34,595 nucleotides of DNA, taken from NCBI GenBank assembly GCA_027002475.1, contig JALWZS010000045.1, positions 1 to 34,595 on the forward strand, read 5' to 3'. The notes beneath the pieces are model-generated. The model had not been told where the DNA came from. It worked only from the letters and a program-made list of their open reading frames with translations, and did no database searches. Below are positions 4,769-18,337 of the stretch, one piece after another. How positions within the stretch are numbered: the first letter of the stretch is position 1; every line of letters begins with the position of its first letter. The stretch comes from a bacterium. GTDB taxonomy: Bacteria > Patescibacteriota > 4484-211 > GCA-002791395. Made by a program: the position numbers and the translations under genes.

Positions 4769-5599
4769 CTAAAAGGGGTCGTTTTTTCCTGTTTGATATT
4801 GTGATTGTGGGTCAATGGTTTTTTGGTCATACAAAGAGGTGTATTGTACTAACTCCTCCAAGATTTTCTTATCATTTTCACTTAGCCCAGTTATTGGATC
4901 TGAGGGGGCACCAATAGAATTAACCAACCCCTCAAAAGGTGATTCCAAACTAAGGGTTAAATCTTTACTTGGAGAATGTACTGCTTCTTCGCCCTCTTGT
5001 TCTGGAGAGTAAGCCTCGGTAGGCGCAGCAGTTATATCAATACTCGTAACGCGCATTAATGGAAGTGAGTTATGAAGTTTTTTAATCGCATCAAGTATTT
5101 GATACATCTCACCACTAGCAGTAATGTTAACGCTTATAGTTCCGTTCCCATCACTTGGAATATCTGTGTCAAATATTACCTGATTACTTTCACTTGTGTT
5201 GGTCTCGCCTTTTTGCGCAATGACATCTTCAGAGGACATGGCCTCAGACGCCTTATCCTTAGCGTTAATTCCACTAAAATAAATGTTTTGCAATGCCATA
5301 CCAGAACCAACAATTTCATTCTCAACAGAAGACAGTATTACTGGAGCAACAACTCGGCGGGGGACAGCTATATTTAGTTCTATAAAGTACTTTTCTAAAT
5401 CGTTGACATCCTGAGCATTTAGTAAGTCAAGTTTAGGAACCATACTTTCCACTTTATTTTCTAGCGATTTTATTTTTTCTTGTTTATCTTCAATATCCTG
5501 CCACCAACGTCCCAACACAAAAACCCCAACTACGATCCAAAACAATAGAGCAATTAGTGGAAAAGCTATTATTGTTGACAGGTTTTTTATATCTTTCAT
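4769..5599 (-). CDS. pilO: PilO-like pilus assembly protein
   Basis: Bitopic inner-membrane protein of the type IV pilus alignment complex. A short cytoplasmic start (MKDIKNLSTI) and one transmembrane helix (about residues 10-32) lead into a coiled coil (about 36-60) and then an extracytoplasmic domain. The region GTISVNITASGEMYQILDAIKKLHN with SLPLMRVTSIDI matches the ferredoxin-like PilO core. At 276 aa it is longer than typical PilO (about 200), with an acidic Ser/Thr-rich insertion and a C-terminal extension. It starts seven bases after pilN. Assignment rests on fold pattern and on the order pilM-pilN-pilO; individual PilO sequences diverge strongly. Confidence 0.8.
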   Translation of the reverse strand: MKDIKNLSTIIAFPLIALLFWIVVGVFVLGRWWQDIEDKQEKIKSLENKVESMVPKLDLLNAQDVNDLEKYFIELNIAVPRRVVAPVILSSVENEIVGSGMALQNIYFSGINAKDKASEAMSSEDVIAQKGETNTSESNQVIFDTDIPSDGNGTISVNITASGEMYQILDAIKKLHNSLPLMRVTSIDITAAPTEAYSPEQEGEEAVHSPSKDLTLSLESPFEGLVNSIGAPSDPITGLSENDKKILEELVQYTSLYDQKTIDPQSQYQTGKNDPF

Positions 5600-5606
5600 G
5601 CTTGTA

Positions 5607-6161
5607 TCAATTATTACCTTCCTTAGTCTCAGATGCTAGTTTTATAGAGATATCAAAGCCATACGTATAATCCTTATCACTAAAACGAAGACCAGTGATT
5701 TGTGGTTTAGCAAATGTATCTGTATCTTCTGCTAAGTTTTTAAGATAAGTTGCCAACTGCGATAACTTTTCAGTAGAACCACTTAAAATTAACGTGCCAT
5801 CATCTTTTAACGACAAATCGCCAATAGTCATGGTGTCGCCGACAGATTGCACTAACCTTTCTATGATCTGATCGTAGTTAATCCTCTTATCAATAAACTC
5901 TCTAGCAGTTTTGCTTTTTTGAGTAATAGAGCGAAGATACCACTCTTCAGTTTTTTTGGTATCTATCTGAGCAACTAAATCGCTAGCTTGCTTATCAATG
6001 CTTTGGTATTGCTTAGTTACTGTGTATCTATAAGCAAATAGACCTGCCGTAGTAGCGACAAGACTAATTAAAAGCACCAATGACAACGACACTGAAATTA
6101 ACTTATAGTTATGGTGCTTTTGAGCCTTTTGTAGGTTTTGAGGTAAAAGGTTAATCGCCAT
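5607..6161 (-). CDS. pilN: PilN-like pilus assembly protein
   Basis: Bitopic membrane protein that binds PilM through its N-terminal tail. The sequence begins MAINLLPQNL, the conserved PilN INLLP motif that docks in PilM. A transmembrane helix (about residues 23-46), a coiled segment and a ferredoxin-like domain follow, with the typical GDLSLKDDGTLILSGSTEKLSQLATYLKNL written here in pieces: GDLSLKDDG and LSGSTEKLSQL. The length of 184 aa is normal. It overlaps the end of pilM by 11 bases and ends with TGA, rare in this window. Confidence 0.88.
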   Translation of the reverse strand: MAINLLPQNLQKAQKHHNYKLISVSLSLVLLISLVATTAGLFAYRYTVTKQYQSIDKQASDLVAQIDTKKTEEWYLRSITQKSKTAREFIDKRINYDQIIERLVQSVGDTMTIGDLSLKDDGTLILSGSTEKLSQLATYLKNLAEDTDTFAKPQITGLRFSDKDYTYGFDISIKLASETKEGNN

Positions 6162-7224
6162 CTTCTTCCCGCCTTGCTAATCCAACAGCCACGGCAAAGG
6201 AAACTTGGTTTTCTACCTGTTCGGTCTTTGCGCGGAACTGTTCTGGGATAACAACTCCCTCCCAAGGATTTCCAATTTGAACTTCCAAACCGAGTGTATT
6301 AGCTAAAAAGAGCACTAAACCTGGTAGTTGGGCAGTTCCTCCAGTTAATACAACCCGCTTGACAGTTGTTTGAGGATTATGCGTTTGGAAATACATTATC
6401 GCGCGCTCGACCTCGTTAACAATAACCTCAACAACAGGACGAACAACTTTCATAATCTTTCCTTCTAGCTGGTCTTCCATAAGACCGTATGCCTTCTTGT
6501 ACTCCTCTGCCTGGTTCATATCAAATCCGAGCTCTTGAGATATTGCTCTTGCAATAGCTGTTCCACCTGTTCCAATGCTCCTAGTAAATTGGATTACACC
6601 GTTATCAACAACTGCTAAATCTGTAGTACTAGCACCAATCGACATAAGAAGTGTCGTTGGAACGTGCCCGGCGCTAACTGGGGTTAAAGAACGAGCAATA
6701 GCAACAGTTTCCGTCTCTAGTGCAATTGGTCTTAAACCTGCTTTATCCAAAACGTTCACATATCTGTCAATCAAAGTATTTGGAGCAGCAACTAATAAGA
6801 CTTTAACCTTTGGCTTCTTATCTTCAGCGGACTTCCTAGCGTTTTTTAATACATCTTTATCTAAAACCATCCAAGAAAGCTTAATCTCGGTTAAGGGCAT
6901 TGGAATGTATTGTTCTGCCTGCCATTCTATTGCATTGCCTAATTCTGCTTCGCTAACAGCTGGCACTTCTATAACTCGAGTGAAAATTAAACTCTCAGGA
7001 AAGGCAGCTACAACATTACGAGACTGTATTCTACTTTCCTCAACCATTTGGCGAATGTATCGGCTCAACTCACGTTGATCACTATCTGAATCAGAAAATA
7101 TAGAGCCCGCTGGGGTAGGGTGGTAACCAAAAGTCTTAAGCTTAAATTTGCCGCCATTGTTTTCTAACTCTACGGCTTTAAGCGAATTTGATCCGATGTC
7201 TAGTCCAAAATATTCTTCTTGCAT
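6151..7224 (-). CDS. pilM: Type IV pilus actin-like ATPase PilM
   Basis: Cytoplasmic FtsA/actin-like protein that anchors PilN at the inner membrane. The N-terminal phosphate-binding loop is FGLDIGSNSLKAVEL (residues 5-19); later motifs are MSIGASTTDLAVVDNG and VVLTGGTAQLPGL. The length of 357 aa is standard. It is the first gene of the pilM-pilN-pilO operon, preceded by TTAACT, 17 bases, TATAAA on the minus strand (7270-7242). Its leader would be about ten bases with no Shine-Dalgarno site. The promoter overlaps that of the divergent gene at 7275. Confidence 0.95.
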   Translation of the reverse strand: MQEEYFGLDIGSNSLKAVELENNGGKFKLKTFGYHPTPAGSIFSDSDSDQRELSRYIRQMVEESRIQSRNVVAAFPESLIFTRVIEVPAVSEAELGNAIEWQAEQYIPMPLTEIKLSWMVLDKDVLKNARKSAEDKKPKVKVLLVAAPNTLIDRYVNVLDKAGLRPIALETETVAIARSLTPVSAGHVPTTLLMSIGASTTDLAVVDNGVIQFTRSIGTGGTAIARAISQELGFDMNQAEEYKKAYGLMEDQLEGKIMKVVRPVVEVIVNEVERAIMYFQTHNPQTTVKRVVLTGGTAQLPGLVLFLANTLGLEVQIGNPWEGVVIPEQFRAKTEQVENQVSFAVAVGLARREEDGD

Positions 7225-7270: not shown

Positions 7271-7274
7271 AGTG

Positions 7275-7628
7275 ATGTCAAGCGATAAAAGTGTTTCTAC
7301 CAAATACAATCCCATGCCATTAATCTTTACACTAACTGTAATAGCAACCAGCCTTATAATTGCACTCCTAGCACTATTTATTGCAAACAAGATTAGCAAG
7401 GCACAAAAAGAAGTATCTGTATACACTAACTATGAAAAGCTTAACATCAATATCACGCCTCAACCCACTAAAGCCATTACTCCCACCCCTAGATCGGCAA
7501 CACCAACACCACTTCCAACTCTAAGTGAAGAACAAAAAGAAGAGGTGAAAGATACATTTAAAAAAGAATTCGATGACAAAGGCTTAGAGATTCCACCAGA
7601 GGCGCTAAAAGAACTAGAGAACCTCTAA
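7275..7628 (+). CDS. Membrane-anchored protein with Thr/Pro linker, unknown function
   Basis: 117 aa from ATG at 7275; a GTG three bases earlier is the only alternative. A hydrophilic N-terminus is followed by one transmembrane helix (about residues 15-40), then a short segment, a Thr/Pro-rich linker of the TPTP type (about 62-85), and a charged, probably helical C-terminus. The design (anchor, proline linker, small head) resembles the exported protein at 3471-4118 without sequence similarity. It lies between pilM and the adhesin gene, convergent with the latter (stop codons three bases apart). A link to the pilus is suggested by position only. Confidence 0.75.
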   Translation: MSSDKSVSTKYNPMPLIFTLTVIATSLIIALLALFIANKISKAQKEVSVYTNYEKLNINITPQPTKAITPTPRSATPTPLPTLSEEQKEEVKDTFKKEFDDKGLEIPPEALKELENL

Positions 7629-7631
7629 CTT

Positions 7632-9575
7632 CTAGCGGGGAACCTCACCCCAGTAGTAATGTTGTGTTTCGTTGTTTAGATATTGTGCGAGTTTTGAGTC
7701 CAGAACGTAGCGAGGTTGCCATACAAATTTTTCAGCAGGTGTATTTGTATTGTTATCTGTGCCACTTGTTCCTAAGTCTCTAGATATACTAAACCCTGCT
7801 AGAGCAATTACAGAACCATTAACGGTTAATGTCTTCCTTGATAAACCTGTTGTGTCTGAATCAAAGGTCCCATCACAAATAAAAAATCCTGCAATGTTCT
7901 CTACGTTCTGATTCGTAACAGAAATATCTCCCTCAACAAGAAAAACAACAACGTTATCATCTCCCACAGTGTAGTCTGTAGATATATCCATATCTCCTTC
8001 AACAATTACAACTTGAGTTACGTCTGCATTCTTCCATGAATTTTTAACAGTCGTAGCATCTAGATCATAGTCACCATGTTCTATGTATATTCCGTCACTC
8101 GTAGGAAGAGCCGCGCCGCTCAAATCTGTTGCGCGCTGTTTTAGCTCAGTATATTTGGGTAAAACATCACTAATTTGCGATTTATTACTTAATGCGTGAG
8201 TATAAGAATCGTCTATCCAGCCGGTAGAAGACTCAATCGTTACAGATCCGTAATCACTAGCTACATCTGCTTCACTAGTATCATCACCTGTTGGGGGAGT
8301 AGGCAAGTAAATTTCGCCTTGAATAAACATCGATCCATCTGGGGCTAAGACCCAAGGAGCAGCAAGTTCGTAGGCAGGGCTTGTACTACAATTACCAGCC
8401 ATATCACAGATTCGATACTGCACTCTAAAAGGATAGTGCGCACTATCTCCAAAGTCTATCTCTCCTGTATTTAATTCAACTAAGCTAGTCTCACCATCGC
8501 TTGCATTTTGCCCATTAGAAATTAATTTGACTGAGTCAACAGGTAGCCAACTACTCCAATATTGGCCGTTATGTTCTGTATAGTATTTGTACTCTGCTGT
8601 GCTAACATCCACTCCACTAGTTACATCCTGAATATCTGCACTAGTGCTATAGCAGTGGTTACAAGTACCATTAGTTGCCGTAAAGTTTTGCCACGGGTTA
8701 GGAATAACTGTATCAATCTTTAATGGTGCAGTATGTTCGCTTTCAACGTTACCATCGTTATCCTCACTATAATAATGCAAAGTGTGCGCTCCTTCATCAG
8801 AAAACGTAAAGTTAACATGCTCCGTAGTCCCACCTGCAGACCTAACTTCTACCTGATCCCAATAGACTAAAGCGGCAGGCGTACCAGTCGCACCAAGTTT
8901 TACATATATGTAATTTGTTGAAGAAGGAACAGTAAACGTAGCAGTAGCGTTATGCCACGACCAATTAACACCTTCGATATGATTGGATGTTGCAAGCAAA
9001 GTATCGTTATCTCCATTAACATCTTCACCCCAAACCTCAAAGTACGCGTAGTCACCACTAAACATTAAAGTCCTAGCCCAGGCGCTTATTTCAACCAACT
9101 CTCCTGCAGGTAGCTCTATCGAATATGGCTCGTTATACCAATAATAGAAAGTGGGTGTAAGCCCAATAAACAAAATCGCAGCAGAACGAGACCCATCATG
9201 TGCTGAAAACGAACTACTATAGTACAAGACCAAACCAGAGGTACCTTTATACCAGTTGTCTATGTCTGAACCAGTTAAAGTCTCGAAAGAGTTATTTAAA
9301 AAAGGATTTAACTGTGTAGTTGTAAACTGTGTAACAACAGGTGTACCGCTATCAATCCAATATGTATTTTCAGCAACACCACTTTCCGAGTCAGTAATAG
9401 ATAAATCCACATCAATATTGCTGCGATACCAGTTATCCTGGCCTGCAGTTCCAGAATAACTCCTAGTTGTAGTAGGTGGAGTAGTATCAGCTGCATACAC
9501 ATTCCTAGACGGAAATACCACCACAAGAACGAAGCCAATAAGGAATGCTACAAACAACTTTCTGGCAGTTCTCAT
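7632..9575 (-). CDS. Large secreted adhesin-like protein of the pilus cluster
   Basis: Predicted 647-aa exported protein. A signal peptide (MRTARKLFVAFLIGFVLVVV, cleavage near residue 28) precedes an OmpL47-type Ig-like domain that begins TTPPTTTRSYSGTAG and ends FSDEGAHTLHYYSEDNDGNV. Between these halves (about residues 90-235) sits a CBM4/9 (CenC)-like jelly-roll: NPFLNNSFE at its start, a W-rich centre, and VYWDQVEVR at its end. A second Ig-like repeat with paired Cys follows, then a Thr/Asp-rich C-terminal domain of about 220 residues ending HYYWGEVPR. The start at 9575 is preferred to GTG 9590 because a -10 box overlaps the latter. It is the last gene after the minor prepilins and PilX-like gene, which suggests a pilus-tip or surface adhesin, perhaps for glycans. 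Function is inferred. Confidence 0.8.
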   Translation of the reverse strand: MRTARKLFVAFLIGFVLVVVFPSRNVYAADTTPPTTTRSYSGTAGQDNWYRSNIDVDLSITDSESGVAENTYWIDSGTPVVTQFTTTQLNPFLNNSFETLTGSDIDNWYKGTSGLVLYYSSSFSAHDGSRSAAILFIGLTPTFYYWYNEPYSIELPAGELVEISAWARTLMFSGDYAYFEVWGEDVNGDNDTLLATSNHIEGVNWSWHNATATFTVPSSTNYIYVKLGATGTPAALVYWDQVEVRSAGGTTEHVNFTFSDEGAHTLHYYSEDNDGNVESEHTAPLKIDTVIPNPWQNFTATNGTCNHCYSTSADIQDVTSGVDVSTAEYKYYTEHNGQYWSSWLPVDSVKLISNGQNASDGETSLVELNTGEIDFGDSAHYPFRVQYRICDMAGNCSTSPAYELAAPWVLAPDGSMFIQGEIYLPTPPTGDDTSEADVASDYGSVTIESSTGWIDDSYTHALSNKSQISDVLPKYTELKQRATDLSGAALPTSDGIYIEHGDYDLDATTVKNSWKNADVTQVVIVEGDMDISTDYTVGDDNVVVFLVEGDISVTNQNVENIAGFFICDGTFDSDTTGLSRKTLTVNGSVIALAGFSISRDLGTSGTDNNTNTPAEKFVWQPRYVLDSKLAQYLNNETQHYYWGEVPR

Positions 9576-9581
9576 GTGATA

Positions 9582-9587
9582 AATATA
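9582..9587 (-). promoter_or_regulatory. -10 box of the adhesin gene
   Basis: TATATT on the minus strand six bases before the ATG at 9575. Supports the ATG over the GTG at 9590. Confidence 0.35.
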
Positions 9588-9623
9588 CACTAAAAACGAC
9601 TAGTAGGGTAGAGAAAAAGAAAC

Positions 9624-10412
9624 TTACTTAGATAAAGATCCCTGACTCGAAAATAACACGTAGTCCAATATAGATGGTGGCACTGGAGCACTTCTTTGCA
9701 CTTGTACAGTCCTTTCAGTCTCTCCAGACTGCCCAGTAGAAGTAAGTACCGTACTTTGTACAGGAATTACATTAGAAGCAGATGGCGACACTGATAGTGA
9801 TGTGTCTGCATACATAGCTCTAAAGCGAATGACTCGATCCTTTCCACCTGCACTTCTGTTATCTACGGAGATACTTTCTGTGCATTTTCGTGTATTGACA
9901 TTAAAAGTTCCAGAATCAAAGTTAGCACCACTAATACTCCCACACTCGTAAGCGTATCTAGAAACTGTGTATGGTTCGGCATCACCGTGTATTTTAGTAA
10001 CAACTAATGCAGTGCCTTCATCCCATGTATATGAAACAGTACCAGCGATACAAGTAGCGCAGTCCAGATTAATTTGTGCCACTGAATCCTTTTCTAGTTT
10101 ACTTATATTGAGAGCAGTAGATTGCTCTACTGTAACTTCTTTGATATACGCACCACTCTGCAGGGGAGTAGGGGTTGTAATTGGCACTGGAGCGCCGCCA
10201 CCTTGTTCTAATTCTAGAAGCTTTTCTTCTAACCCCGCCTCTGCCGCAGAGTACGCACGATTACTTTCCTCGTTTAGGTTCGTTTCCTCAATGTTTTTTA
10301 TTGCGGTACCTGCAATTGAAAAACCTATTGTAGCGGCAACTAAGATAACAAGTAGTATAAGTGGCAAGACCTGACCTTCTTTATTAACTAAGGCAGTTCT
10401 TTTTATTTCCAT
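9624..10412 (-). CDS. PilX-like pilus assembly protein
   Basis: 262 aa from ATG at 10412. The N-terminus KEGQVLPLILLVILVAATIG, followed by NEESNRAYSAAEAGLEEKL, is the PilX-like pattern: a hydrophobic helix with a preceding Gly and then the AAEAG segment. The canonical FTLIE with Glu at position +5 is absent, so it is a non-classical prepilin or membrane-retained protein. A Pro/Thr stretch (about 76-85) leads to a beta-rich C-terminal domain with four Cys. A longer start at 10448 is possible but adds a charged stretch uncommon in this family. It follows three canonical minor prepilins and precedes the adhesin gene, which suggests it helps initiate or cap the pilus. Confidence 0.75.
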   Translation of the reverse strand: MEIKRTALVNKEGQVLPLILLVILVAATIGFSIAGTAIKNIEETNLNEESNRAYSAAEAGLEEKLLELEQGGGAPVPITTPTPLQSGAYIKEVTVEQSTALNISKLEKDSVAQINLDCATCIAGTVSYTWDEGTALVVTKIHGDAEPYTVSRYAYECGSISGANFDSGTFNVNTRKCTESISVDNRSAGGKDRVIRFRAMYADTSLSVSPSASNVIPVQSTVLTSTGQSGETERTVQVQRSAPVPPSILDYVLFSSQGSLSK

Positions 10413-10461
10413 ATTTATTAAATTACCCTTTAAGCATCGACTTGTCAATTTAAGTTATACA

Positions 10462-11034
10462 CTAGTAGCCTCTTGTAATAACTATGCGTTTAAATTCAAG
10501 AGTAGCTTGACCATGAACATCCGAGAGCGCGTCAGATTGACTAAGCTTTAACGCAATTGTTACCTTATCTGGATCAACTACCGACTCATCTACATTTGCA
10601 GTAAATGAGTCAACTGTTACTGTGCTACTAGTTAGTTCACACCCATCCCCACTACTACAAGTAGACGTGCCGTCACAATCAGACGTCTTTTTGTATAATT
10701 TCCCGTTGCTGAGGTAAATGGTAACTGTCGAGCAATTACCATTTGATGCATACTCTAGATTAGAATCGCTATTAGGGATCGTCAGTTGTACACCTGTATT
10801 AGAGTAAACACTAGTAGCGTCTTCTGCACTTCGTATTGTCCTAACAAGTTGTTCCATAACCCTTAACCCCTCATGGTTAACCTGAGTAACGACATCAGCC
10901 TTATCATATGCACCAGTTAAAGAAATAAATGCAGTTATAGAAACTCCTGCGATTGCCATAATCAAACCTATTGATACAAGGAGCTCTATAAGTGTAAAAC
11001 CGGAATATTTTGAAGGCGAGTTTAATTTCTCCAT
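10462..11034 (-). CDS. Minor prepilin (PilW/GspJ-like)
   Basis: 190 aa. A short basic leader ends at the prepilin peptidase site, SG/FTLIELLVSIGLIM (from residue 11), with Glu at +5. The helix is followed by a region typical of PilW/GspJ proteins (VNHEGLRVMEQLVRTIRSAE) and a beta-rich C-terminal domain with several Cys (DCDGTSTCSSGDGCE). It starts inside the end of the preceding prepilin gene (13-base overlap), so the two are translated together. Cleaved by PilD and built into or near the pilus tip, by analogy. Confidence 0.9.
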   Translation of the reverse strand: MEKLNSPSKYSGFTLIELLVSIGLIMAIAGVSITAFISLTGAYDKADVVTQVNHEGLRVMEQLVRTIRSAEDATSVYSNTGVQLTIPNSDSNLEYASNGNCSTVTIYLSNGKLYKKTSDCDGTSTCSSGDGCELTSSTVTVDSFTANVDESVVDPDKVTIALKLSQSDALSDVHGQATLEFKRIVITRGY

Positions 11035-11504
11035 TTAGTTAAAATAGTACCAGTTTCGACTTTAGAATATCCAGAAGCAGAACTACCGTTATTCCATAAG
11101 ACATAAACTGTGACTTCTTTTCGTGTAGCATCTCCTGAAATTCTAAAGACTTGGTAAAGATGCACTGTAGCGTTATTTATTACAACCCCTTGTATTTCGC
11201 ATCCCTCCTTCATAGTACCCGAATCGATACTGCACTGAGAAGGCTCCAGTCCATCGCCACTTGGGTTTTTCTGGTAGTCCCCATTGCCTAATGCAAAGAA
11301 TTCAGCCGAGTTGGTATCACGATAAAATCTAACAAAGTCAATCCCAGCATCCGCATATTCTTGAGCAACTGATCGAATCCTTGAGGCATCTGAGGTATTC
11401 AACGTAGTAACCGCCAGCTTGGTTAATGCCGCAACAACAACAAGCATTAACCCAATAGCAATTAAGATTTCAATAAGTGATAAACCTTTATCATTTACAA
11501 ACAT
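11022..11504 (-). CDS. Minor prepilin (PilV/GspI-like)
   Basis: 160 aa from ATG at 11504, giving MFVNDKGLSLIEILIAIGLML: peptidase site KG/LSLIE with Glu at +5, then the pilin helix. An alternative start at 11540 would overlap the upstream prepilin and push the site too far inward. The head domain is short, with one predicted disulfide pair (CSIDSGTMKEGC). It lies in the minor-pilin run between a GspG-like and a PilW-like gene and overlaps the latter by 13 bases. PilV-like identity is inferred from order and helix type. Confidence 0.88.
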   Translation of the reverse strand: MFVNDKGLSLIEILIAIGLMLVVVAALTKLAVTTLNTSDASRIRSVAQEYADAGIDFVRFYRDTNSAEFFALGNGDYQKNPSGDGLEPSQCSIDSGTMKEGCEIQGVVINNATVHLYQVFRISGDATRKEVTVYVLWNNGSSASGYSKVETGTILTKWRN

Positions 11505-11517
11505 ACTCTTTACAATA

Positions 11518-11970
11518 TTAGTTGTCGCAATACCCGGCATCCGCCTGACAAGTCAATGAACCACCACACGTAGTATATGTTCCTTCATTATTCTCAAGTG
11601 TAGCTGATAGTTGGTAGCACTTTGGTATTGAATTTATTTCATGCACTGAGTACGAATAATAGTATGTAGAATCATTTATAGGGTCAGTTGGCCATTCAGA
11701 TATATAGTCGGCGAGCACAGTAGATAAATCTGAGTAAGTTGGTGCATCAGTTGACGAAGGGTACTGTCTCCCATGATCTAAGTAATATTGCTCGAGCGCA
11801 CTACGAACCGCCTGTAAGTCAGTTTCACGCTTTGTGTTTCTCCCCTTACCATAAAAAACGGCAGGCTTTAAAATGGCTATAGAAACAGCTGAAAGAACAC
11901 CTAGGATTACAATTACAACCAACAGCTCAATAAGGGTAAATCCTTTGTTTTTATTAAAACGTCTTTTCAT
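11518..11970 (-). CDS. Prepilin, GspG/PilA-like
   Basis: 150 aa. MKRRFNKNKG/FTLIELLVVIVILG is a textbook type III signal with Glu at +5. The region TKRETDLQAVRSALEQYYLDHGRQYPSS is typical of pseudopilin G or PilA-like proteins. Four Cys lie in the last third (KCYQL, TTCGG, TCQADAGYC). A -10 box TATATT (11986-11981) lies ten bases before the ATG. It is the first prepilin downstream of pilD on the same strand. Confidence 0.92.
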   Translation of the reverse strand: MKRRFNKNKGFTLIELLVVIVILGVLSAVSIAILKPAVFYGKGRNTKRETDLQAVRSALEQYYLDHGRQYPSSTDAPTYSDLSTVLADYISEWPTDPINDSTYYYSYSVHEINSIPKCYQLSATLENNEGTYTTCGGSLTCQADAGYCDN

Positions 11971-11997: not shown

Positions 11998-12807
11998 CTA
12001 GATAGCAATGCTTAATGTCAAGTATCCACTGATAATAATATCAGCCCACAAGAATGCAATTAATGCTCCTGTTGCCATATATGGTCCAAAAGGAATCGTT
12101 TGTCCAATCTTACGCTTTCCAATAAGTAAAAAGACTACAGCAATAAGCCCTCCAATCATAAACGACAAATACATTCCAACTAAAGTGCCTAGCGCCGAAA
12201 GAAATAGTCCTATTACAAACGCTAACTGCACGTCACCGCCCCCCATACCTTTACCCTTTGTTCCAAAATGAAGAATCGCAAAAAAACTCGAAGCTGCAAG
12301 GGCAGATAAAACTCTAACTGTTAATTCAAATATCCACTCATTCTTATCCGCTGATACTACAAATAAGTAAACTTGCCAAAAGACGAAAACAAGAAGTAAG
12401 AAATATAAAACGCTTTCGTTGATAATCCCGTATTTAATGTCAATCATGCTTATAACAAATAGGGAATAGGCGAACAACATAGCTATGGCAACAGTTAATA
12501 AAGTTGTATTTGATTGCACCCAAAAAGACCACATTACAAACATCGTTATTAAACCCGTTAAGATTTCTGAGATAACGTACTGTATTGACATCTTCTTGCC
12601 GCAACAACATGTTTTACCCCGCTGCACAAGAAAAGAAATCACAGGAATGAGTTCGTACCATGCTAGCGTATGGTTGCAGTAGTCACAATGAGAACGCCCA
12701 ACTATTACACCTTCTCCCGCAGGTAATCTATCTATAACTACATTCAAAAACGACCCTATAAATGCGCCTATTATAAAAAACACACATAAACTAAGTATCC
12801 ACCACAT
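11998..12807 (-). CDS. pilD: Prepilin peptidase / N-methyltransferase PilD
   Basis: Integral membrane aspartic protease that cleaves prepilin leaders and methylates the new N-terminus. The N-terminal segment GAFIGSFLNVVIDRLPAG is diagnostic. The cytoplasmic cysteine domain shows CDYC and then CCCG, where the usual second CxxC has collapsed to three adjacent Cys. The two catalytic aspartates are in DIKYGIIN and GGGDVQ. Several transmembrane helices fill the rest; 269 aa is normal. All five canonical prepilins in the window are likely substrates. It heads the run of minor prepilins and diverges from the prepilin gene at 12866. Confidence 0.96.
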   Translation of the reverse strand: MWWILSLCVFFIIGAFIGSFLNVVIDRLPAGEGVIVGRSHCDYCNHTLAWYELIPVISFLVQRGKTCCCGKKMSIQYVISEILTGLITMFVMWSFWVQSNTTLLTVAIAMLFAYSLFVISMIDIKYGIINESVLYFLLLVFVFWQVYLFVVSADKNEWIFELTVRVLSALAASSFFAILHFGTKGKGMGGGDVQLAFVIGLFLSALGTLVGMYLSFMIGGLIAVVFLLIGKRKIGQTIPFGPYMATGALIAFLWADIIISGYLTLSIAI

Positions 12808-12865: not shown

Positions 12866-13393
12866 ATGGATGGTAAAAATTCAAGCGGGTTTTCGCTAAT
12901 TGAACTTATGATTGTTGTTGGAATCATAAGCATGGTCTCAGCGATCTTGATGCTCACAATAAATCCTCTACAGATAATGTTTCGAGCCCGTGATAGTGAC
13001 AGAGTTACCGACATTGGAACTATTAACAACGCAATACAAAACTACATGACAATAAAAAAGCAAACCATTTGCGAAGGAGTAGGGCAGTGCAATGTCGATT
13101 TTGAGCTAAATGGAAGCGATCCGGTCAGTCAAGTTCTAGTAAATTCACAAGTCCTAAAAACAATACCCGAACCACCAAAAGACGCACTTAGCGAAAAATG
13201 CGATTACCACATTTTTCTTTTAAATAACGACGATGATTATTTACTACGTTGGTGCTTTGAGTCTTGGACAAAAGCAGATGTTGACCGCTTAGTAGGAGAT
13301 GAAGCGCATTTTTGTACTTGGGATCAAACAGACAACATTGCCATATGTTTTGCTAATAAAAAATATTCAATCCCTGCGATAAAATATAATTAA
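12866..13393 (+). CDS. Prepilin encoded opposite to the main pilus genes
   Basis: 175 aa. MDGKNSSG/FSLIELMIVVGIISMV carries the PilD site with Glu at +5 and a pilin helix. The segment RARDSDRVTDIGTINNAIQNYM resembles GspG/PilA helices. The head contains six Cys in three local pairs or loops (TICEGVGQC, KCDYH with RWCFE, HFCTW with AICFA). Unlike the other prepilins it is on the plus strand, divergent from pilD, and paired with a small membrane gene that starts two bases after its stop. A specialised minor pilin is likely; its role is unknown. Confidence 0.88.
   Translation: MDGKNSSGFSLIELMIVVGIISMVSAILMLTINPLQIMFRARDSDRVTDIGTINNAIQNYMTIKKQTICEGVGQCNVDFELNGSDPVSQVLVNSQVLKTIPEPPKDALSEKCDYHIFLLNNDDDYLLRWCFESWTKADVDRLVGDEAHFCTWDQTDNIAICFANKKYSIPAIKYN
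13385..13390 (+). promoter_or_regulatory. -10-like box overlapping the prepilin stop
   Basis: TATAAT five bases before the ATG at 13396 and adjoining the TAA of the upstream prepilin. It may be fortuitous, since it encodes the last Tyr-Asn codons. Confidence 0.3.
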
Positions 13394-13716: not shown

Positions 13717-14199
13717 TTACTGAGCAGTACAACTTGTTCCACCGCCAGGTGAATCTTCAGAATCTGCGAACACAAATGCTCCTGCAGTACCTACACTTGG
13801 AGCTGTGTCACAACACAAATACGTTTGGCCGTCACCGGAGTAATATGTCCAGTATCCGGTGCTAGTACAACCAGTACTCTTGGCATCTAACTCACCGTAA
13901 ACGATTGTTTGATACGTTCCCACGTCGAGGGTCACATCAGAGACTTGCTGCTTCAAGAACCCTTGGGAAACAAGCGTACTCATTGTTAACCCAGAGTAAC
14001 TACCGCTGTTAGTAGTGTAGTAAGACTCAACAGCAGTTGCCACTTGACCAACGTCGTTCTTGACTCCTGAGTCGTTAGCTTCTTTGATACGCTCTGAAGG
14101 ATTGATAGCGACCAAAACAACTGACGCAAGAATACCAAGAACTGCGATCACGACCAAAAGCTCAATAAGGGTGAATCCCTTTTTGGCAAATTTAAACAT
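13717..14199 (-). CDS. Major type IV pilin
   Basis: 160 aa. MFKFAKKG/FTLIELLVVIAVLG is a classical prepilin with a seven-residue basic leader and Glu at +5; NPSERIKEANDSGVKNDVGQVATAVESYYT is the usual helix continuation (shown partly: NPSERIKEAND). The head ends in a Cys-rich, Gly/Ser-rich tail (YLCCDTAP, GGGTSCTAQ). It is called the major pilin because it has by far the strongest ribosome-binding site in the window, sits right after pilC, and ends in a strong hairpin. A GTG at 14208 lies within the ribosome-binding site and is not the start. Confidence 0.92.
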   Translation of the reverse strand: MFKFAKKGFTLIELLVVIAVLGILASVVLVAINPSERIKEANDSGVKNDVGQVATAVESYYTTNSGSYSGLTMSTLVSQGFLKQQVSDVTLDVGTYQTIVYGELDAKSTGCTSTGYWTYYSGDGQTYLCCDTAPSVGTAGAFVFADSEDSPGGGTSCTAQ

Positions 14200-14204
14200 C
14201 TTTC

Positions 14205-14215
14205 TCACCCCCTTT
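14205..14215 (-). promoter_or_regulatory. Extended Shine-Dalgarno site of the major pilin
   Basis: AAAGGGGGTGA on the minus strand, five bases before the ATG at 14199. It can pair over eleven bases with the usual 16S rRNA 3' end (one G-U pair). Confidence 0.8.
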
Positions 14216-14276
14216 CAAATTTTTAACTTTTTCAATCTTTTTTCTAAGGTTTGGGCAGTTTGACATGAGCTTTAGG

Positions 14277-14308
14277 TTTATAGTTTCATACTAAAATTGA
14301 CTTGTCAA
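14277..14308 (-). promoter_or_regulatory. Possible promoter of the major pilin
   Basis: TTGACA (14308-14303) at the end of pilC and TATAAA (14282-14277), but with a 20-base spacer, longer than usual. It would give a leader of roughly 70 bases containing the strong ribosome-binding site. Confidence 0.35.
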
Positions 14309-15496
14309 GGAATAAATCGGCAAAATCAAGGCTACAACCAAAAATCCAACCATAACCCCAAGCAAAACCATGACAATTGGCTCAATTGCACTGGCTAAGT
14401 TTTCAGTCTTACGCGATGCTTCACTTTCATAATACTTTGAAATCTTAAGTAAAACTTCATCAACCTTACCAGTTTGCTCTCCAACAGCTAACATTTCACT
14501 TAATAGGGGAGGGAACTCTTTGTGCATCTTAAATGCATCTGCAAGTGGCTTCCCTTTCTCAACTTGAACAGCTGCTTCTTCTGCTGCACTTCTAAATATC
14601 ATATTCCCAAGGGTTTCCTTAGAGATGTCTAATGCATTAAGAAGCGGGATACCTGACTTCACAAGCATACTAAGAGTTCGAGTGAAAGAGGTTAATTGTA
14701 CTTGTGCTATTAGGGAGCCAAAAACTGGCATCTTCAACATTAACTTTGCCCATGCCTTTGCTACAGCAGGTCGTTTCATTAGTTTTTTTAGCCCAACTAT
14801 AAAGGCAACTATCCCCAACAGCATTAGATACCAAGTCTTAACAAGCAAATCGCTAAACTGAATCATTAGTTTTGTAACAATAGGTAACTCCGCCCCCATA
14901 TCTTCGTACATTCCAGCCATTTGTGGGATCACAAATATAAACATAACTAGTAACACCGCAATCATAACTACAATTATGATTACTGGATATATCATTGCTC
15001 CCTTAACCTTACCTTTAAAGTTTTCCTCTGCCTCCATCGTTTCAGAAAGCCTTGAAAGAATTACCTCTAAGTTTCCAGATGCTTCACCAGCTTCAATTAG
15101 AGAAAGGTATAACCTATCAAAAACTTTTGGATGAGCCGCCAATGCTTCATGGAAGCTTGTACCACCATCAATCTGCTGAATCATATCTGTTATAACCCCT
15201 GCAAAATAGGCATTTGTTGTTTGACCAGCCAGAATTTTCATTGCTTGGTTAATTGGCAGTCCAGCTCCAATCATAGTACCTAGCTGCCTAGAAAAGACCA
15301 CTATCTCTCGCTTGGGGACACCTTTTATCTTGGCGAGGAACTCTCCGACATCTGTAGTCGTTTTCTCTTCAAGCTTTGTGACTATGTAATTTCTACTCTT
15401 TAATATATTGATAGCCTGCTGGCGACTGACCGCCTGCAATTGACCCGATTGTGGTAATCCGTCTGAGTCTACTCCTGTATATTTAAACGTCTTCAT
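14291..15496 (-). CDS. pilC: Type IV pilus platform protein PilC
   Basis: Polytopic inner-membrane protein (GspF family) on which PilB and PilT act. The start MKTFKYTGVDSDG at 15496 is the standard PilC opening; the longer frame to 15559 overlaps pilT and is rejected. Two GspF cytoplasmic domains are visible (from about residue 50, PKREIVVFSRQLGTMIGAGLP, and from about 255, SFTRTLSMLVKSGIPLLNAL), each followed by transmembrane segments, with a final helix near the C-terminus (VMVLLGVMVGFLVVALI). The length of 401 aa is normal. It begins four bases after the pilT stop. Confidence 0.97.
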   Translation of the reverse strand: MKTFKYTGVDSDGLPQSGQLQAVSRQQAINILKSRNYIVTKLEEKTTTDVGEFLAKIKGVPKREIVVFSRQLGTMIGAGLPINQAMKILAGQTTNAYFAGVITDMIQQIDGGTSFHEALAAHPKVFDRLYLSLIEAGEASGNLEVILSRLSETMEAEENFKGKVKGAMIYPVIIIVVMIAVLLVMFIFVIPQMAGMYEDMGAELPIVTKLMIQFSDLLVKTWYLMLLGIVAFIVGLKKLMKRPAVAKAWAKLMLKMPVFGSLIAQVQLTSFTRTLSMLVKSGIPLLNALDISKETLGNMIFRSAAEEAAVQVEKGKPLADAFKMHKEFPPLLSEMLAVGEQTGKVDEVLLKISKYYESEASRKTENLASAIEPIVMVLLGVMVGFLVVALILPIYSLTSQF

Positions 15497-15500
15497 AGTT

Positions 15501-16553
15501 TTAGCTAAACATGCGCGAAAGCTCGTCAGGACGCAATGTATGTTGCATTGCCATCTCACGGCTTATATGTCCAGATTTAACTAAGGTGTAGAGCGAATGT
15601 TCCAGTGACATCATTCCCAACTCCTGTGATGTAAGAATTGCATTATCAATTTGGTGAGTTTTCCCTTCGCGTATTAAGTTTCTGACAGCTGGCGTAACCT
15701 TAAGGATTTCAGTTGCAGGGTAACGCCCACCTGTAATACCTGGTATCAACCTTTGGCTAACGACCGCCTCTAATGTCATTGCTAACTGTGAACGCACCTG
15801 TGCCTGTTGATGTTCAGGGAACACATCAATAATCCTGTTAATGGTTGATGCAGCACTATTGGTGTGTAACGTTGAAAATACCAAGTGTCCAGTTTCAGCG
15901 ATTGTTAACGCCGCAGATATCGTTTCTAAGTCGCGCATCTCTCCAACTAACACTACGTCAGGATCTTCCCTAAGAGCAGACCTTAAAGCAATATCCCAAG
16001 AGTGTGTATCTAAATGTAACTCACGCTGTGAAATTAGTGATCTTTTGTGCGGAAATACATACTCAATCGGATCTTCAATCGTTATAATGTGTTCAGCTCG
16101 ACTTTCGTTAATCTCGTTAATAATTGCAGCTAAGGTAGTAGATTTGCCGTGCCCCGTTGGCCCAGTTACCAGCACAAACCCTTGAGGAAGAGTAACAAAT
16201 GTATTCACAATAGATGGTAGATTTAATTCACTTATAGTCCTTATTTGCGTGGGGATATAACGAAGTGCTGCAGCAAGGTATCCCTTTTGGTGATAAACAT
16301 TAACCCTAAATCGCGCAACTTCACCCAAAGCAAACGAAAAGTCAATCTCGCGATTTGCTTCTAGGATTTCTTTTTGTTCATCAGTAAGAATTGAGTTAAT
16401 AAGCTCTGTAACGACCTCTTCCGTTACAGCATCGTAACCTTCCATAGGAACCAAGGAGCCGTCAATTCTAAGAGAGGGGAGCGCACCAACTAATAAGTGC
16501 AAATCGCTTGCATTACGCTTTATTACTTCTTCGAGCAGTTGTTGAATATTCAT
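15501..16553 (-). CDS. pilT: Type IV pilus retraction ATPase PilT
   Basis: Hexameric AAA-like ATPase that drives pilus retraction. The sequence opens with MNIQQLLEEVIKRNASDLHL. Walker A is GPTGHGKSTT (residues 131-140), followed by the Asp box (TIEDPIEYVF), Walker B (DPDVVLVGEMRD) and His box (GHLVFSTLHTNSA). The length of 350 aa is standard for PilT rather than PilB. Its presence beside pilB implies that the pilus is retractable. Leader 16554-16627 shows no strong promoter; transcription may continue from pilB. Confidence 0.97.
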   Translation of the reverse strand: MNIQQLLEEVIKRNASDLHLLVGALPSLRIDGSLVPMEGYDAVTEEVVTELINSILTDEQKEILEANREIDFSFALGEVARFRVNVYHQKGYLAAALRYIPTQIRTISELNLPSIVNTFVTLPQGFVLVTGPTGHGKSTTLAAIINEINESRAEHIITIEDPIEYVFPHKRSLISQRELHLDTHSWDIALRSALREDPDVVLVGEMRDLETISAALTIAETGHLVFSTLHTNSAASTINRIIDVFPEHQQAQVRSQLAMTLEAVVSQRLIPGITGGRYPATEILKVTPAVRNLIREGKTHQIDNAILTSQELGMMSLEHSLYTLVKSGHISREMAMQHTLRPDELSRMFS

Positions 16554-16627
16554 ATCTCAAGTACTAGTTAACCTAAAGTAACTTTACCGTTTTTTATATG
16601 CGAACGCAATAGTAGATATATAAAAAC

Positions 16628-18337
16628 CTACTCATTTGCAACGCGCAAGACTTCTTCTAGAGTAGTCTTGTGTTGAATAGCTTTTAGTAAACCATCTTGC
16701 CTAAGTTTAATCATTCCGTTTTCTATTGCGGCTTTCTCGATATCTTCCGAGATTGCTCTTTCTAAAATCAGATGCTCGATTTTTTCATTTATTACCAAAA
16801 CCTCAAATATTCCCATTCGACCAGAGGCGTAATCGTTGGCATGCTCAGGCTTTGGTCGTACAAGTTTTAATTCACCCTCTTTAATATCCTTAGGGAACAA
16901 AGAACCTAAGTCTTGCCTTATCATTTCTTCCACTTCTTTAGTAACGGTATATTCTTCAACCTTTTCAGGAATAACAACCCTAACCAACCTTTGCGCCACA
17001 ATACATTGAATCGTAGAGGCTAGCAAAAACGGCTCAGCACCCATATCAAGTAGACGAGGTAGCGCCCCTGCAGCAGAGTTTGTGTGAATGGTGGAAAAGA
17101 CTAAGTGCCCAGTTAGCGCCGCCTGAACGGCTAATTCCATAGTTTCGCCATCTCGAATCTCACCGACCATAATAACATCTGGGTCCTGCCTTAAAAGTGC
17201 CCTTAGTCCATTGGCAAACGTCAACCCAGCTTGTACATTAACCTGACTTTGGTTAATTCCAGGAATTCGATATTCCACTGGGTCTTCAAGCGTTGATATA
17301 TTAACGTCAACGCTGTTTATCATACTTAGTGCGGTACGCAAAGTTGTGGTTTTACCACTTCCAGTTGGTCCAGTTACAAGGATAATTCCATGTGATTTAT
17401 GGATTGCGTCATTAAAGTTTTTCCTAGCAGAACCGACCATTCCTAGTTGATCTAGTGTAGGTACATGAGCACTTTTTCTAAGAAGTCGCATAACGACTTT
17501 TTCACCAGTCGCAGTTGGTAGAGTAGAAACACGAAGGTCTATATCCTCGCCATCTGCAGAAAACTGGAATCGTCCATCTTGTGGAATTCGTTTTTCGTCA
17601 ATTTTTAAGTCGGATAAAATCTTTATACGAGACACAACCGCATCATGAACCCGCTTAGGCAAAGACAAACGCTCCTTTAAGATACCGTCAATCCTAAATC
17701 GCACCCTTGTCCTATCTTCTAGTGGTTCTATATGAATATCAGATGCTTTTGCTTTCATTGCGTAAGTAACAATTGTTGACACAATCCTTGCAACTGGAGC
17801 CGACTGCACAATATCCTGTGCCTGGTCCATCGTCTCAAGCTCTTTTTCTGCCTTTTGCATCTCCTCCGCGGTTTCAGAAAGAGCCTCTTTAACTTCACTT
17901 TCAATCCCAGCGCTGTAACTACGGTTAATCGCATCAATGATGTCATCAGGTACCGCCAATTGTGGTTCAATCTTAAGTCCTGTCTTTGCTTCCAAAAACT
18001 CTATAACCTGTAAATCAAGCGGGTCTTTCATTGCTACTTGCAACTTTCCTTCAACAATTCGAAGAGGTATCAGCGTGTAATGCCTCGCGACAGATTCAGG
18101 AATCTTAGACACTACGTCTGCAGCCACTGCAATCTCTCGTACGTCTACAAACGGAATTTTAATCATTTGAGCTCGCGCTTCTACCAGCTGTCTTGGCGTA
18201 GCCCATTCCTTATTAAGAATAATCGTTTCTAAATCCCGTCCAGTATTTATTTGCTCAACCCTAACCTGAGAGGCTTGGTCGTCGGTTAATACACCCTGCG
18301 CAACAAGAATTTCCGCGATATCAGTACGTCCTGCCAT
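16628..18337 (-). CDS. pilB: Type IV pilus assembly ATPase PilB
   Basis: GspE-family ATPase that powers pilus extension. An N-terminal MshEN-type domain (about residues 1-145) is followed by a helical linker and the ATPase core with Walker A GPTGSGKTTT (323-332), Asp box LEDPVEYRI, Walker B DPDVIMVGEIRD and His box GHLVFSTIHTNSAA. The zinc-binding tetracysteine found in most PilB proteins, between AQRLVR and GRMGIFEVL, is absent: no Cys remains there. The length of 569 aa is typical. First gene of the pilB-pilT-pilC-pilin run, with promoter TTGACT, 16 bases, TATAGC overlapping the divergent holB-like gene. Confidence 0.97.
   Translation of the reverse strand: MAGRTDIAEILVAQGVLTDDQASQVRVEQINTGRDLETIILNKEWATPRQLVEARAQMIKIPFVDVREIAVAADVVSKIPESVARHYTLIPLRIVEGKLQVAMKDPLDLQVIEFLEAKTGLKIEPQLAVPDDIIDAINRSYSAGIESEVKEALSETAEEMQKAEKELETMDQAQDIVQSAPVARIVSTIVTYAMKAKASDIHIEPLEDRTRVRFRIDGILKERLSLPKRVHDAVVSRIKILSDLKIDEKRIPQDGRFQFSADGEDIDLRVSTLPTATGEKVVMRLLRKSAHVPTLDQLGMVGSARKNFNDAIHKSHGIILVTGPTGSGKTTTLRTALSMINSVDVNISTLEDPVEYRIPGINQSQVNVQAGLTFANGLRALLRQDPDVIMVGEIRDGETMELAVQAALTGHLVFSTIHTNSAAGALPRLLDMGAEPFLLASTIQCIVAQRLVRVVIPEKVEEYTVTKEVEEMIRQDLGSLFPKDIKEGELKLVRPKPEHANDYASGRMGIFEVLVINEKIEHLILERAISEDIEKAAIENGMIKLRQDGLLKAIQHKTTLEEVLRVANE

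Follow-up and report, generated by a model that had tools for sequence, protein, structure and literature searches.

A CBM4/9-like module nested in an Ig-like domain of a candidate type IV pilus tip adhesin from Patescibacteria

How Patescibacteria recognize host cells is largely open, and the window analyzed here (the whole 34,595-nucleotide stretch) raises the question of whether a split-domain protein encoded among the pilus genes of this ultrasmall bacterium could contribute. The gene order is pilB, pilT-like, pilC, pilin, pilD, three minor pilins, a PilX-like gene, the nested-domain gene, pilM, pilN, and a pilO-like gene (Table 1), a complete type IV pilus cluster. The preliminary description placed the nested gene at the end of a minor-pilin operon; it does belong to the minor-pilin part of the cluster, but lies between the minor pilins and pilMNO rather than at an end. 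A small opposite-strand open reading frame (7272-7628, plus strand), encoding a membrane helix and a Pro/Thr-rich tail, separates it from pilM and has counterparts in family f1 relatives. Another pilin gene (12866-13393, plus strand) is divergent from pilD, on the strand opposite to the rest of the cluster.

Table 1. Coordinates of the nested-domain gene, its parts, and the surrounding pilus genes (window positions unless a contig handle is given).
Feature	Position	Strand	Details and basis
Nested-domain protein gene	7632-9590	minus	652 aa; open reading frame and translation, full-length homologues in 26 genomes
Sec-type leader	9489-9575	minus	MRTARKLFVAFLIGFVLVVVFPSRNVYA-A, without class III prepilin motif; read from sequence, no N_methyl match
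OmpL47/Ig-like domain, first half	9318-9488	minus	residues 35-91; profile matches and uninterrupted homologues
Nested CBM4/9-like jelly-roll insert	8826-9317	minus	residues ~92-255, ~160 aa; boundaries set from uninterrupted homologues
NPFLNNSFE motif, insert start	9282-9308	minus	residues 95-103
W113	9252-9254	minus	invariant
VYWDQVEV motif, insert end	8844-8867	minus	residues 242-249
OmpL47/Ig-like domain, second half	8700-8825	minus	residues 256-297; profile matches and uninterrupted homologues
Second conserved region, probably Ig-like	8358-8699	minus	residues 298-411; alignment conservation
C-terminal beta-rich domain, weakly DUF7305-like	7635-8357	minus	residues 412-652; recurs in other proteins of the phylum, one pilX-adjacent
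PilX-like putative tip pilin, directly upstream of nested gene	9624-10448	minus	no Glu5 (KEG|QVLPLILL); homologues beside pilW/pilV in other families
Three minor pilins	10462-11970	minus	10462-11034, 11022-11540, 11518-11970; N_methyl PF07963
Prepilin peptidase PilD	11998-12807	minus	PF06750 (1.2e-30), PF01478
Pilin, PilC, PilT-like, PilB	13717-18337	minus	PilC 14291-15559, PilT-like 15501-16553, PilB 16628-18337; PF07963, PF00482, PF00437, MshEN
pilM, pilN, pilO-like (downstream)	4769-7224	minus	pilM 6151-7224 (PilM_2, 5.5e-58), pilN 5607-6161 (PilN, 2.9e-4), pilO-like 4769-5599 (by position only)
Type IV pilin with C-terminal CBM_4_9	L092:704-1717	plus	same gene at L110:8704-9717; N_methyl and CBM_4_9

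The interruption of the OmpL47/Ig-like domain is genuine. Although Pfam scores for the 652-residue protein as a whole are weak, the NCBIfam model barrel_OmpL47 (NF047446) recovers the domain in two stretches that span both halves, just below the 40-bit cut-off in the window protein (38.3 bits, 1.4e-9), and matches seven of eight members of the order (best 2.1e-12). In other patescibacterial proteins, ten homologous domains that carry no interruption align to the two halves consecutively with nothing between (about 1e-9 to 1e-20 for each half, in a small search space), and they have a short turn where the window protein carries some 160 residues. Free-standing copies of the insert found in other proteins by insert-profile search lack flanking Ig halves among those examined. 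A misread frame or chance is ruled out by 28 full-length open homologous loci; the gene may alternatively start at an ATG at 9575. The split described in the preliminary account is thus real and correctly placed on the minus strand, with both boundary motifs present, but the insert is longer than the ~145 residues proposed, and the interval given for the nested arrangement (8830-9480) contains the first Ig half and the insert and leaves the second half outside.

Several comparisons, of sequence profiles and of predicted structure, support the identification of the insert as a CBM4/9-like jelly-roll, as had been suggested from its end motifs. Pfam CBM_4_9 (PF02018) matches 15 of 27 inserts (best 1.4e-6); since the window's own insert has no Pfam match by itself, its CBM identity is drawn from its homologue family. 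When searched against the PDB, a profile built from the 27 inserts matched a hyaluronate lyase chain (4d0q) over its whole length at 1.7e-5, followed by a phage central fiber protein and, at lower significance, by modules of xylanases. Restricting the profile to the first 30 insert residues gave a match to CBM16-1 (0.008) that aligned the invariant W113 with a CBM16-1 tryptophan that we take to lie in the binding cleft of that module. Structure models, made for the window and one relative (L006), are of low confidence: the insert model has a mean pLDDT of 56.5, with the first 65 residues below 50, and is usable only for insert residues 66-159. Foldseek nevertheless placed CBM16, CBM4, and CBM22 near the top for this model (probability 1.00, E 1.5e-4 to 1e-3, TM 0.37-0.57), and a model of the whole nested domain (mean pLDDT 44.9) recovered the same fold families at E >1e-3. 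Phage baseplate and fiber proteins also appear among the Foldseek and profile matches. As far as these modest-confidence models go, they do not speak against a separate jelly-roll.

The nested arrangement arose once and has been conserved across eight families. Among 380 genomes sampled from this one phylum, 28 near-full-length loci occur in 26 genomes, and all 27 loci taken into the alignment carry the insert at the same position with an N-x-S-F-E motif. No aligned homologue lacks it, and the insert family is homologous to carbohydrate-binding folds. That motif, W113, W212, and D245 are invariant, and W/F/Y residues at 148, 183, 187, and 243 are for the most part retained from family to family. 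When nested and free modules were placed in one tree, the nested inserts formed one clade (99/94 support, 99% of bootstraps), which points to a single ancient insertion. Distances between inserts rise in step with those between the remaining parts of the protein (r 0.88-0.92), and a recent or strain-specific insertion is ruled out on both counts. The rapid variation that the preliminary description expected of the insert was not seen: within one genus, dN in the insert (0.065-0.144) was similar to that in the Ig halves (0.06-0.164) and in the C-terminus (0.09-0.115). These values rule out a hypervariable head at the available divergence, although dS is mostly saturated and they give no strain-level reading. 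Two scans of viral contigs found no relatives.

The protein carrying this insert is neither a pilin nor PilY1. Pilin identity is ruled out by the Sec-like leader, which has no class III N-terminal methylation motif, and by the lack of an N_methyl match in Pfam, and PilY1 identity by the absence of any PF05567 match, including the C-terminal beta-propeller, in the protein or its genome. Its gene does, as is typical of pilY1, lie beside minor pilins. The protein sequence shows neither a cell-wall anchor nor a membrane helix at its C-terminus, and no known pilus-docking motif was identified. The DUF7305-like C-terminal domain may be a pilus-docking module; it recurs in other proteins, encoded beside PilX-like genes and at further sites in the genome (L069:1110-3527, L070:8775-11189, L002).

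Linkage to pilus genes is kept in five families and lost in another one. A WWE3 relative has the same gene order as the window, and the slot beside the PilX-like gene (itself without a Pfam match in the window), pilM, or both recurs in families f1, f2, f57, f73, and f121. In family f39, the nested gene is not linked to the pilus cluster and is usually found next to cysS-like genes; in the f39 cluster examined, the PilX-like gene runs straight into pilM; some second copies of the nested gene are also unlinked. A PilM-family match was present in 25 of 25 related genomes searched, which is weak evidence because PilM is widespread and the weakest match (G035) is not a clear PilM. In family f2, a 1506-residue protein encoded between the nested gene and pilM (L069:6480-11000) has DUF5060, apiosidase-like, CBM-like, and beta-helix stretches; it is a putative glycosidase encoded among the pilus genes.

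A CBM module also occurs on a true pilin. One genome without the nested protein (G147) encodes, inside a complete pilB-T-C-A-D-V-W-X-M-O cluster, a pilin of 337 residues that has the N-terminal methylation motif and, at its C-terminus, a CBM_4_9 domain scoring above the curated cut-off. This is the strongest insert-profile match outside the nested family (2.1e-15; 56 bits, versus at most 8 for ~1,900 shuffles), and by its domain content it is a modular lectin-type pilin in Patescibacteria. Taking this pilin and the nested protein together, the phylum appears to place CBM-type heads on pili by two routes.

Because the nested arrangement is real, of single origin, and kept in eight families, the protein makes a good candidate for the cell-gripping part of a pilus. 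In our judgment, the chances are about even that the nested protein is a secreted, non-pilin tip adhesin of the type IVa pilus with a glycan-binding head, occupying a slot (PilX-like to pilMNO) comparable to that of PilY1 in diderm bacteria. The leader would route the protein through Sec, and the C-terminal domain, the second Ig-like domain, or both could attach to the PilX-capped minor-pilin complex. As a stalk, the N-terminal Ig-like domain would then display the jelly-roll from one loop, the head may bind a glycan carried by another cell or by a surface, and pilus retraction would pull the cell in. This reading draws on analogy with PilY1, which sits on PilX in Myxococcus xanthus (PMC7541494), with the modular lectin pilin PilC of Streptococcus sanguinis (PMC9934059), and with PilX2, which Saccharibacteria require for full host binding (PMC12206443). 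It is strengthened by the slot kept in five families and by the module on a true pilin of a relative. The unlinked copies, the missing anchor or docking motif, and the low pLDDT of both models count against it, as do the purely structural roles of CBM4/9-like folds in, for example, phage fibers.

Alternatively, the same CBM-like head could belong to a secreted cell-surface adhesin held by the envelope rather than the pilus, its operon position reflecting co-regulation. The Sec leader without a prepilin motif and the unlinked f39 genes and paralogues fit this rather unlikely reading, whereas the conserved slot between the PilX-like gene and pilM, the related module on a true pilin, and the lack of any visible wall anchor or C-terminal helix argue for the pilus. 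Location aside, the head may have lost sugar binding and instead space or stiffen the tip, bind protein, or only help prime pilus assembly. Most of the invariant residues (N99, S101, F102, E103, and D245) look structural or calcium-related, and phage baseplates and fibers use similar folds, but W113, with its CBM16-1 counterpart, and the candidate ligand aromatics largely kept at four other positions make such a loss improbable in our view. We also think it unlikely that the ligand is a polysaccharide or biofilm matrix rather than a host cell, a role that could, for example, aid twitching on polymer surfaces. The CBM16, CBM4, and CBM22 relatives bind plant-type polysaccharides, and the apiosidase-like protein of family f2 would suit this, but the window's own cluster has no such enzyme, and all cultivated Patescibacteria are episymbionts (PMC12206443).

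If the tip-adhesin reading holds, the nested protein would resemble known systems only in part. Like PilY1/PilC of type IVa pili (PF05567), it is a secreted non-pilin encoded beside PilV-PilW-PilX-like minor pilins, with a putatively adhesive N-terminal part and a different C-terminal part, but its Ig, CBM, and DUF7305-like layout has no homology to the PilY1 beta-propeller. S. sanguinis PilC likewise adds a carbohydrate-binding beta-sandwich to a type IV pilus in a bacterium without PilY1, but it is a pilin with an appended, concanavalin-like lectin (PMC9934059), whereas the putative pilus component described here has no pilin part and a nested CBM4/9-like module. PilX2 of Saccharibacteria is also a patescibacterial pilus protein with a non-standard leader, an extra domain, and a proposed adhesin role; unlike the nested protein, it carries an RCC1-type beta-propeller on a pilin-like lollipop, without nesting (PMC12206443). 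CBM4/9, CBM16, CBM22, and the 4d0q module share with the insert, by profile and fold matches, an NPxFE start, a probable jelly-roll, and an aspartate near the last strand, but those modules are attached in series to enzymes, while the insert is displayed from an Ig loop without one.

The PilY1-like slot is thus occupied here by an unrelated protein. It is a tentative and somewhat doubtful proposition that such proteins replace PilY1 in Patescibacteria as a new class of non-pilin adhesins at the type IV pilus tip, in which a putative nested lectin head would read envelope glycans and set host cell choice. For the question of host recognition, the nested insert offers one defined, soluble module of ~160 residues, kept over eight families, whose putative glycan binding is directly testable without culturing the organism.
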